Assembly: GCA_023473425.1 (NCBI GenBank)
Contig: JAMCYG010000019.1
Coordinates: forward strand, 1-46,780
Source of the DNA: Candidatus Martarchaeota archaeon
Lineage (GTDB): Archaea > Micrarchaeota > Micrarchaeia > Micrarchaeales > Micrarchaeaceae
Direction: 5' to 3'
Length of the DNA: 46,780 nucleotides
A model generated the notes under the pieces. That model saw only the letters and a list, made by a program, of their open reading frames with translations. It had not been told where the DNA came from and ran no database searches. Position 1 is the first letter of the stretch. Every line of letters starts with the position of its first letter. Both the position numbers and the translations under genes were made by a program. Below, piece after piece: positions 11,535 through 15,816 of the stretch.

Positions 11535-12503
11535 TCACGATGCCGAGGTAGACATGTAGTTTATACGGGGCTCTTTGATGCCCTTTGCATTTCTGCCCCT
11601 TATAGATTTCCTGACTCTGACGAGCCTCTTTGCAGGACCCGGAACCGAGCCTTTTATGAGCATGAAACTATTCTTTATGTTACCATAGTTCTTGAAGCCG
11701 GCTTTTGGGTTTACTGAATTAATTTCTACAGGTGTGCCTAGCTTGAGTATTCTCTTATCCTGCTCTGTCCTGTAATTGAACCCAGTCTGGCCAGCCATAG
11801 GCACTGTATAATAGACCCGGCCAGGCCTCATAGGTCCAAGAGAGCCTACGTGCCTCCTTTTCTGCGTAACTTTCCTTCCCTGCACCTTTACTCCGTGACG
11901 CTTCACAGCACCCTGCCAGCCCTTACCCTTGCTTATTGACACAAGGTCGACATACTCGCCGGATTTGAATACATCAGATATGGAAAGTTCCTTCCCAAGC
12001 TTAGATATGGCTACCTCGAACTTGTCAGGAAGCGTAGATCCTGCGACTGATGATTCAAACCTTATTATGTGGTGCTGACCAGTACTGGTACCAGCAGGCT
12101 GTGCAGCCATAAGGAGTTTCACGTCCACAAAATCAGACAGTTTCTGCTTGATTTCTTCCAGCTTTGCACTGTTGTTATGTGGTATCTTAAGCTTCTTGGA
12201 TACGGCATCGTCATATATTTCAGTTTCTGCCTTTTTGTATCCTGTTGAAGAATCCGTCTTGTACAGCCTTATACCATAGACTTCTGTCTTGGGCATTTCG
12301 AGAACAGTGCAGGGTGTGCTTACTTCCATGCCTTTCGATGGCCCATCAGAGTCATCACTCATCAGCACATGCAGCATGCCTGCCTTGAATGTGATTATAT
12401 TAGCCACGCTTCCTTCAGATAGTGCAGGCTCTGACCTAACCCTCGGTAACCTTTTTGATGCACGCCTGTGCGGCCAGTACTGTAGTGATCCATGATGGGG
12501 CAT
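11535..12503 (-). CDS. rpl3: 50S ribosomal protein L3 (uL3)
   Basis: A 322-residue archaeal/eukaryote-type uL3 and the first gene of the S10-like operon. It has the HHGSLQYWPHRRASKRLPRV N-terminus, the SKGKGWQGAVKRHGVKVQGR signature and the RRHVGSLGPMRPGRVYYTVP segment near the peptidyl transferase centre. It begins with an ATG at 12503 with no clear Shine-Dalgarno, so a leaderless or short-leader mRNA is likely. Confidence 0.97.
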   Translation of the reverse strand: MPHHGSLQYWPHRRASKRLPRVRSEPALSEGSVANIITFKAGMLHVLMSDDSDGPSKGMEVSTPCTVLEMPKTEVYGIRLYKTDSSTGYKKAETEIYDDAVSKKLKIPHNNSAKLEEIKQKLSDFVDVKLLMAAQPAGTSTGQHHIIRFESSVAGSTLPDKFEVAISKLGKELSISDVFKSGEYVDLVSISKGKGWQGAVKRHGVKVQGRKVTQKRRHVGSLGPMRPGRVYYTVPMAGQTGFNYRTEQDKRILKLGTPVEINSVNPKAGFKNYGNIKNSFMLIKGSVPGPAKRLVRVRKSIRGRNAKGIKEPRINYMSTSAS

Positions 12504-13841: not shown

Positions 13842-14091
13842 TCATTATTATATTTTTCTATGTACTGCCCTTTTGTGGACTGCTTGTAGGAAGCCCGAAT
13901 AGGGTGTGGATTGTAGCTATTTAGTTTGACCTTTTAAAGAACATTGACTTTTCCGAATCGGTATAATCGATATTTATGTCAATATCTATATGCTTCTTAG
14001 TTAGTAAGGTATAAATATTAGAATATGCGCGGAAATGTAATGGGCTTAGGCCCGTCCACTCCACTACTTATAATGTATTAAAGGTACTTCC
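13842..14091. promoter_or_regulatory. Divergent promoter region between rpl15e and TFE
   Basis: A 250-bp AT-rich gap. On the minus strand AAAATATAATAAT (about 13843-13855) lies roughly 55-65 nt before the L15e start. On the plus strand TTATAATG (about 14067-14074) lies some 20-25 nt before the TFE ATG, so the TFE mRNA is probably leaderless or nearly so. A further TATA-like GGTATAAATATTAG lies near 14008. A short GC-rich palindrome, GGGCTTAGGCCC at 14042-14053, lies between the elements. No ORF seen. Confidence 0.45.
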
Positions 14092-14979
14092 ATGGCTAAC
14101 AATAGATCAAAGTCTAGGTCACCCAAACTCAAAAAAGAGGGTAAAAAGAGCTCTATAGAGGGCAGAAACAGGAATAGTAAGGCAGGTTTTGGTAGTAAGA
14201 AGGTTACCAAAACAAGAGCAGCAGTAAATTCCAATAAGGGCAGTGGATATGTGAAAAACGTATCTGTAAGAATGCACCCAAAGACTACCAAAGCCATAAA
14301 ATCCGGAGCGCAGAGAATGACCAATCCTAAAAAGATAGTTAAGAGGGTGGCAAACACTATTGCAACTAAAAACAAAAAAGTGGAACCAGCCCAGCATAAG
14401 AGAAAGGCAAAACCGTCGATAAACATACCCTCTATTGAAGATTCGAGGCGCGTTCTGGACACGATATCATCCAATCAGACCGCGGTAAATTACATAACTA
14501 AGAACATAAGCAGGAGAGTACTTGATGTTCTCAACTTGCTTGAAACACCAAAAAGTGATGAGGAGATAGCGCAGACCCTCGATATGAAGATAAATGCTGT
14601 GAGGCGGATACTTAACATAGCACAGGAGTATGGGATTACCAATTACTACGTCACAAAGAATACAAACGGTTGGCTCTCATTCGCATGGTACATAAACGCA
14701 AACAAGCTGCCATATTTCCTCGAATATATAAATAGCAATAACACAGTGAAATCCGTAATTAACGATGACTGCAATGACTATTTTATATGCAAGACATGCT
14801 ATGGAAAGGATAAGGTAGTATTCACTTTCGACGCTGCTTTCGAGAATGAGTTTAAGTGTAATGTATGTGGCACCGATTTTGTCAGAATGGATAGGGAAGA
14901 GGCAAAGAAGTTGATATACCCAAGCTCGGATGAGGAAAAGAGCGGAGGAAAACTGACTTCTTCATCAGATAAGCCCTGA
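14092..14979 (+). CDS. tfe: Transcription initiation factor E (TFE-alpha) with long basic N-terminal extension
   Basis: The archaeal TFIIE-alpha homologue that stabilises the open transcription complex. The winged helix spans about residues 140-215 (PKSDEEIAQTLDMKINAVRR, then a GW-containing wing TNGWLSFAWYIN). A zinc ribbon follows with C233, C236, C256 and C259 (ICKTC, KCNVC). Unusually, about 110 residues precede the domain and are dominated by Lys, Arg, Ser and Asn with very few acidic residues, resembling histone H1 tails. Normal archaeal TFE is about 150-200 residues; this is 295. The frame is open throughout and begins with an ATG close behind a TATA element, so the tail is probably translated. 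Confidence 0.92.
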   Translation: MANNRSKSRSPKLKKEGKKSSIEGRNRNSKAGFGSKKVTKTRAAVNSNKGSGYVKNVSVRMHPKTTKAIKSGAQRMTNPKKIVKRVANTIATKNKKVEPAQHKRKAKPSINIPSIEDSRRVLDTISSNQTAVNYITKNISRRVLDVLNLLETPKSDEEIAQTLDMKINAVRRILNIAQEYGITNYYVTKNTNGWLSFAWYINANKLPYFLEYINSNNTVKSVINDDCNDYFICKTCYGKDKVVFTFDAAFENEFKCNVCGTDFVRMDREEAKKLIYPSSDEEKSGGKLTSSSDKP

Positions 14980-15318: not shown

Positions 15319-15816
15319 ATGGATAACAACTTCAATTTTGATTATATATGGACAGTTTACCAAAAAGAAAAGCAGACTAATAAACTGACTCTGATCCCAA
15401 AGCAGTTTTACGAAGACGTGAATACATATGTTAGCAATATAAACAAGGCAAATCTTGAAGGACAGTCTTTAATTGCTAATACGTTACAGACAATAGATCT
15501 AATAATTTCGTCTAGGAAACGAAAAATCATAATATACGCTGCATATTCGAAACCGCTGCCACAACCAATTCCGGACGAAGAAAGGGATTTTTACAGCAAA
15601 CTGCTTAACCTGATAAAAAGCTACAATATTTATAACAAAGAGTCATCAATCAATACAGAAATCAAGCCAATGCTCAAAGTAGTAATTGCAGTACCTGAAA
15701 TAACACTACCTTCGGGAAATCATATTGGCCCGCTGGATAAGGATCAGCTAATAAATGTAGAAGACGAAGATGACAGACGGTATCTAGAGACAAACAAGAT
15801 ATGCACTAAACCGTAA
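15319..15816 (+). CDS. gins51: Archaeal GINS subunit (Gins51 type)
   Basis: A 165-residue replication factor of the CMG-type helicase complex (Cdc45/RecJ-MCM-GINS). The N-terminal ~105 residues are helical (A domain), and a small beta-rich B domain lies at the C-terminus, containing the family motif VPEITLPSGNHIGPLDKDQL. The A-then-B order identifies Gins51 rather than Gins23. In many archaea Gins51 alone forms a homotetramer. Divergence is considerable, so the call relies mainly on the B-domain motif, the size and the replication-gene context. Confidence 0.75.
   Translation: MDNNFNFDYIWTVYQKEKQTNKLTLIPKQFYEDVNTYVSNINKANLEGQSLIANTLQTIDLIISSRKRKIIIYAAYSKPLPQPIPDEERDFYSKLLNLIKSYNIYNKESSINTEIKPMLKVVIAVPEITLPSGNHIGPLDKDQLINVEDEDDRRYLETNKICTKP

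Follow-up and report, generated by a model that had tools for sequence, protein, structure and literature searches.

A polybasic, predicted disordered N-terminal tail on the general transcription factor TFE in Micrarchaeota

Archaea and eukaryotes share three general initiation factors. TFE is one of them, and it has so far been treated as a protein of two fixed domains. The window (the whole stretch of DNA that was analysed, 46,780 nucleotides) carries a gene for a TFE-like protein whose conserved part is preceded by more than one hundred residues rich in lysine and arginine. Is this segment a genuine part of the protein, is it shared by relatives of the window genome, and what might it do? 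We addressed these questions by comparing TFE genes across Micrarchaeota. Families are designated f1, f2, and so on; f1 is the window genome's own family, and f2 is its sister family.

Identity and layout of the protein

A sequence-only reading of the window had assigned the winged helix and zinc ribbon to TFE, and this assignment held up. Residues 142 to 212 matched Pfam TFIIE_alpha (PF02002) with 31.9 bits (gathering cutoff, 22.9), and the four ribbon cysteines are kept: among 39 relatives (alignment A2), C233, C256, and C259 were invariant and C236 was at least 90% conserved. In an AlphaFold2 model that took an alignment of 39 relatives as input, most of the winged helix and zinc ribbon core had a pLDDT of 90 or more. 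When this model was used for a fold search of the PDB, the best match was the Thermococcus kodakarensis RNAP-TFE complex (6kf4), followed by human and yeast TFIIE; a sequence profile compared with solved structures likewise placed archaeal TFEs closest (6kf4, E value of 2.8e-23; 6pln; 1q1h). The TFE family was matched in NCBIfam at an E value of 1e-20, and the equivalog scores (73.2 versus a cutoff of 180 and 61.6 versus 149.5) did not reach the curated thresholds because the lineage is divergent. The whole genome has one TFE match, which is this gene. Its domains, its fold, and its presence as a single copy identify the protein as TFE-alpha.

The N-terminal segment was described correctly by the earlier reading as rich in lysine and arginine and almost free of acidic residues: residues 1 to 113 include 33 K/R (24 K and 9 R) and 3 D/E. 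Its statement that the tail doubles the length of the protein was too strong, since the tail makes up 38% of the protein (~113 of 295 residues), an addition of ~60%. In the AlphaFold2 model, the tail had a pLDDT of ~50 to 63 and no secondary structure, and it is predicted to be intrinsically disordered. Residues 1 to 114 had no match to a known domain in Pfam or NCBIfam, which rules out a fusion with a known domain. At the junction with the winged helix, an N[VI]SIPxPE-type stretch is similar in about half of the f1 TFEs (alignment A2). The positions of these features are collected in Table 1.

We used solved structures for comparison with TFEs outside the phylum. With the solved TFEs of Pyrococcus furiosus, T. 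kodakarensis, and Sulfolobus (chains of 110 to 195 aa), the alignment began at residue 11 to 20. They have no more than 20 residues ahead of the matched domain, in agreement with the suspicion that the layout seen here departs from that of a standard archaeal TFE. A search of the open-access literature found no description of an N-terminal extension of TFE or of TFE or TBP from Micrarchaeota, which is not proof of absence. By that literature, the protein is a known factor, TFE-alpha, with an unreported basic N-terminal arm.

Basic N termini are not a general property of these proteomes. For 228 open reading frames (ORFs) of at least 100 aa, drawn from the window and from 240 kb (12 stretches) of the related complete genome G031, the net charge of the first 60 residues averaged 1.2 ± 4.0. 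TFE had a net charge of +16 and ranked second, and only 4 of the 228 ORFs reached +12 or more. This rules out a proteome-wide trend, and the basic N terminus is therefore specific to TFE.

Table 1. Features of the TFE gene and its product (window coordinates)
Feature	Position	Strand	Basis
TFE gene (TFIIE-alpha homologue), 295 aa, ATG start at 14092, stop included	14092..14979	+	ORF, Pfam, and fold match
Shine-Dalgarno-like AAGGT, upstream of ATG 14092	14081..14085	+	Sequence; Shine-Dalgarno statistics in relatives
Candidate TATA box TATAAATATT	14010..14019	+	Read from sequence; function putative
N-terminal basic tail, predicted disordered, residues 1-113	14092..14430	+	AlphaFold2, composition, relatives, no Pfam match
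Junction motif RKAKPSINIPSIEDS, ~residues 104-118	14401..14445	+	Alignment A2, junction listing
Extended winged helix, residues 115-201	14434..14694	+	Pfam TFIIE_alpha; AlphaFold2 helices 115-179, strands 183-201, pLDDT 90+
Linker helix joining winged helix to zinc ribbon, residues 206-221	14707..14754	+	AlphaFold2 secondary structure
Zinc ribbon, residues 227-275, cysteines 233/236/256/259	14770..14916	+	Alignment A2 cysteines; AlphaFold2

Some observations concern the surroundings of the gene. Between positions 11535 and 17014, the gene order is L3 and L15e genes (opposite strand), TFE, and L44e and aIF2-alpha genes (same strand); an ORF of 165 aa at 15319-15816 had no Pfam match. The 22 nt around the TATA-like box (TAGTAAGGTATAAATATTAGAA; window positions 14000-14025) are identical 5′ of TFE in L029, which belongs to another genus, and the distance from this block to the start codon differs between the two genes.

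Spread, translation, and selection of the tail

We compared 58 TFEs, from 36 genomes of f1 and 22 genomes of f2. In 57 of them, an in-frame basic segment of 43 to 145 residues lies ahead of the TFE domain; some of these genes need GTG or TTG as the start codon. The remaining TFE, L045 (genome G025, f1), is divergent and has a net charge of +5. The net charge of the tail over the 58 genes was +14.6 ± 2.9 per 60 residues, and tail identity fell to 17 to 35% in more distant pairs. At the level of gene sequences, this comparison showed that the position, length, and charge of the tail are kept and that its sequence is not conserved. Alignment of related TFEs, the check that the sequence-only reading had proposed, thus supports a tail of conserved position and charge, and the absence from close relatives that it had considered was not seen: near and more distant relatives alike have the tail.

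Across the class, tails were found in f1 to f7, f11, f16, f18, f20, f21, f23, f25, and f26, with a maximum charge of +78 in 173 residues. The tail was absent from f8, f9, f12, f13, f14, and f22 and borderline in f24; most members of f10, f15, and f17 had a short tail or none. On the TFE tree, well-supported branches require at least 6 switches between presence and absence of the tail; a parsimony count of 10 is inflated, because one f1 row (L033) was scored as tail-less owing to its TTG start. Going by this distribution, we concluded that the tail is a lineage-wide add-on, typical of the lineage and not peculiar to the window genome.

Several lines of evidence bear on whether the tail is translated. 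The tail frame had no stops in 5,052 codons of the 58 genes, versus 293 and 413 stops in the shifted frames. Shine-Dalgarno-like motifs preceded the distal start of 23 of 35 f1 genes but only 32 of 210 internal ATGs (Fisher P value of 2e-9). For the four closest pairs, dN/dS was 0.20 to 0.47 in the tail and 0.02 to 0.20 in the core; in the pair L054/L056, the tail value was close to 1 (0.96). Net charge proved uninformative as evidence of coding, since in purine- and A-rich DNA the +1 frame encodes just as basic a peptide (+15.0 per 60 residues, versus +14.6 in the tail frame); the evidence of coding lies in the missing stops, the dN/dS values, and the placement of Shine-Dalgarno motifs. That translation instead begins near residue 110, behind an untranslated leader, is very improbable and was rejected: the window gene does have internal starts (two ATGs, at residues 61 and 76, and one GTG, at residue 97), but L021, L039, and L052 have no ATG from the distal start up to the domain, and the distal Shine-Dalgarno motifs, the stop-free frame, and the dN/dS values below 1 all speak for the longer protein. 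We concluded that the tail is really encoded, translated (by indirect evidence), and under purifying selection.

Possible roles of the tail

In the archaeal preinitiation complex, the TFE winged helix lies near position −12, at the upstream edge of the bubble, and touches the nontemplate strand (PMC3223566; PMC7704642). Hence, an arm leaving the N terminus of the winged helix would begin beside promoter DNA. We propose that the tail acts as a flexible polycation whose contacts with the backbone of promoter DNA (upstream duplex, nontemplate strand, or downstream duplex) are electrostatic and fuzzy. Such contacts would increase the occupancy or retention of TFE and stabilize the preinitiation complex and the open complex in cells without TFE-beta. 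Charge and length kept without sequence are what a fuzzy electrostatic arm predicts. We infer both the DNA contact and the effect on initiation, and we put the probability that the TFE arm grips promoter DNA and stabilizes the preinitiation or open complex at about one-half. The earlier proposal was broader, namely, that the tail binds DNA or RNA or tethers the initiation complex, and as a proposal from sequence it is plausible.

TFB, in the same genomes, has an arm of its own. In f1, the TFBs have a basic N-terminal extension, with a net charge of +7 to +15 in 8 of 9 members. A motif of the IVVxxNKLxIE type is conserved ahead of the zinc ribbon, and an RGRP AT-hook-like motif is present in four of the proteins (L193, L194, L200, and L202). 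This smaller arm probably does a job similar to that proposed for TFE.

None of 146 genomes of the phylum had a TFE-beta match above the cutoff, in a search that found the Sulfolobus positive control, and TFE-beta has been reported to be absent in DPANN (PMC7289017). Loss of TFE-beta does not require a tail, because TFE-beta is missing from tailed and tail-less families alike (the latter being f8 to f10, f12 to f15, and f17). This weighs against the DNA-arm reading, and compensation for the loss of TFE-beta alone is too simple an explanation of the tail. Also to be set against a DNA-gripping arm are the repeated switches on the TFE tree, the basic residues that A-rich DNA yields by itself, the dN/dS of 0.96 for L054/L056, and the equal possibility that the tail binds RNA or RNAP.

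Some of these points would suit a different explanation, in which the tail is a weakly constrained, charge-biased disordered appendage that A/purine-rich DNA tolerates and that has little specific function. Scant sequence conservation among genera, a +1 frame that is as basic as the tail, and gain and loss within the class are compatible with it, as is the single pair with a dN/dS near 1. However, dN/dS was 0.2 to 0.5 in the four closest pairs, charge was kept in 57 of 58 genes, and few other proteins in these proteomes have such tails. We therefore regard an appendage of little function as doubtful.

RNA, like DNA, is bound by polycationic disordered tails. The arm might accordingly act on nascent RNA or on the stalk or clamp surface of RNAP, with effects on promoter escape or on the exchange of factors with Spt4/5. 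The zinc ribbon of TFE is located at the stalk (PMC7704642), and the stalk touches nascent RNA (PMC7289017). However, the tail leaves the protein on the winged helix side, near the upstream edge of the bubble (PMC3223566), and not at the zinc ribbon, and the parallel extension of TFB, with its AT hook, points to DNA. We consider a target on RNA or RNAP unlikely.

A role in chromatin was suggested by the likeness to histone H1 that the sequence-only reading had seen. The tail might neutralize or compact DNA or compete with nucleoid proteins at promoters, much as H1 tails do. The likeness stands for composition (lysine/alanine-rich, acid-poor, and disordered) and falls for relationship: the window protein had no Pfam match to an H15 globular domain, S/TPKK-type repeats occurred twice in 58 TFE tails and not at all in the window protein, and H1 or AT-hook motifs are essentially absent from the TFE tail. 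Without an H15 domain and S/TPKK repeats, the protein is not histone H1. The window genome has two histone genes and one Alba gene, and Alba was found in 137 of 146 genomes, so that compaction of the chromosome by the tail, as had been suggested, is unlikely; a general factor encoded by a single gene is also an unlikely bulk packaging protein.

The distribution of histones is less one-sided. All f1 and f2 genomes examined had histones, as did f3, f6, f8 to f10, f13 to f15, and f17; in the survey of 146 genomes of the phylum, histones were not found in f4, f5, f7 (23 of 23 genomes), f12, f16, f18, f20, and one genus of f11. The largest tails (+31 to +78) belong mostly to the histone-less f4, f5, f7, f16, and f18. 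Of the 8 groups without histones, 7 had a tail, compared with 6 of the 13 groups with histones; for f20, the TFE and histone data come from different genomes. The association between tails and loss of histones is only suggestive, because f12 has neither histones nor a tail; the same counterexample applies to the tail as a histone substitute. We consider a chromatin role for the tail quite unlikely.

We made two further observations on these proteins. The losses of histones are clean at the family level and fall roughly where TFE tails are largest. Tandem two-domain Alba proteins (frames of 207 to 239 aa with two Alba matches) occur in several genomes of f1 and in a few of f2, for example, at G003:C3:35798-36277, G020:C15:21303-21776, and G104:C5:7123-7602.

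A bolder version of the DNA-arm reading would have the basal machinery of Micrarchaeota rebuilt on polycationic arms, with the N-terminal arms of TFE and TFB replacing the work of TFE-beta in stabilizing the preinitiation complex and with the TFE arms of histone-less families (+54 to +78) also serving as local architectural binders of promoter DNA. We put this forward very tentatively.

Split TBP and comparison with known systems

TBP is normally one protein with two repeats. TBP matches were found in 141 of 146 genomes of the phylum, and in f1, TBP is encoded as two single-repeat genes of ~110 residues each. In the window genome (G000), these half-TBPs are located at C4:13040-13285 (L214:1480-1812, minus strand) and C5:12030-12275 (L221:1411-1761, plus strand), and either half can be aligned with both repeats of archaeal TBPs of known structure. 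In both species of the genus, the second half-TBP (L221 and L223) has no in-frame ATG, GTG, or TTG ahead of the domain. Its 5′ end has GAGGAG or GAGGAGG, followed by ACG-GC(G/T)-AAA-AAA with the ACG at the expected spacing, which suggests a noncanonical ACG start. One single-repeat TBP gene is present in most f2 genomes and in f8 to f10, f13 to f15, and f17, and this lone TBP is presumably homodimeric. Two-repeat TBP is found in f3 to f7, f12, f16, f18, and f20. No paper on split TBP in Micrarchaeota was found in the open-access literature. We saw no association that would make the TFE tail a compensation for split TBP, because tails accompany two-repeat TBP (f3 to f7, f16, f18, and f20) and many families with single-repeat TBP lack them (f8 to f10, f13 to f15, and f17).

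If the proposed role is correct, a polybasic arm on TFE and a smaller one on TFB, in the absence of TFE-beta, would mean that a basal transcription machine can use disordered tails in place of structured subunits. Together with split TBP and a possible link to loss of histones, transcription initiation in Micrarchaeota merits attention as a whole. Compared with the TFE tail, split TBP may be the greater surprise, and it merits a study of its own.

Among known systems, the closest are the archaeal TFE-alpha proteins (PF02002; T. kodakarensis 6kf4, P. furiosus 6pln/6xjf, and Sulfolobus 1q1h), with which the window protein shares the extended winged helix, the linker helix, the zinc ribbon, the single gene, and the fold; unlike these solved TFEs, it has a 113-residue basic N-terminal tail that is predicted to be disordered. 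With eukaryotic TFIIE-alpha/beta and archaeal TFE-alpha/beta it has the homologous alpha subunit in common, whereas the TFE-beta partner was undetected here in 146 genomes. The TFBs of the same genomes (L193 to L203) resemble it in having a basic N-terminal extension before a conserved zinc ribbon; their extension is less basic and contains the IVVxxNKLxIE-type motif and, in four members, the AT hook. The C-terminal tails of histone H1 are similarly rich in lysine and alanine, poor in acidic residues, and disordered, but the TFE tail comes without an H15 domain, essentially lacks S/TPKK repeats, and sits at the N terminus of a general transcription factor. Finally, basic N-terminal tails have been described on archaeal histones of Heimdallarchaeota, Huberarchaeota, and Bathyarchaeota (PMC6136690). 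In both cases a basic N-terminal tail is attached to an archaeal DNA-associated protein; here, the tail is carried by TFE and not by a histone fold.
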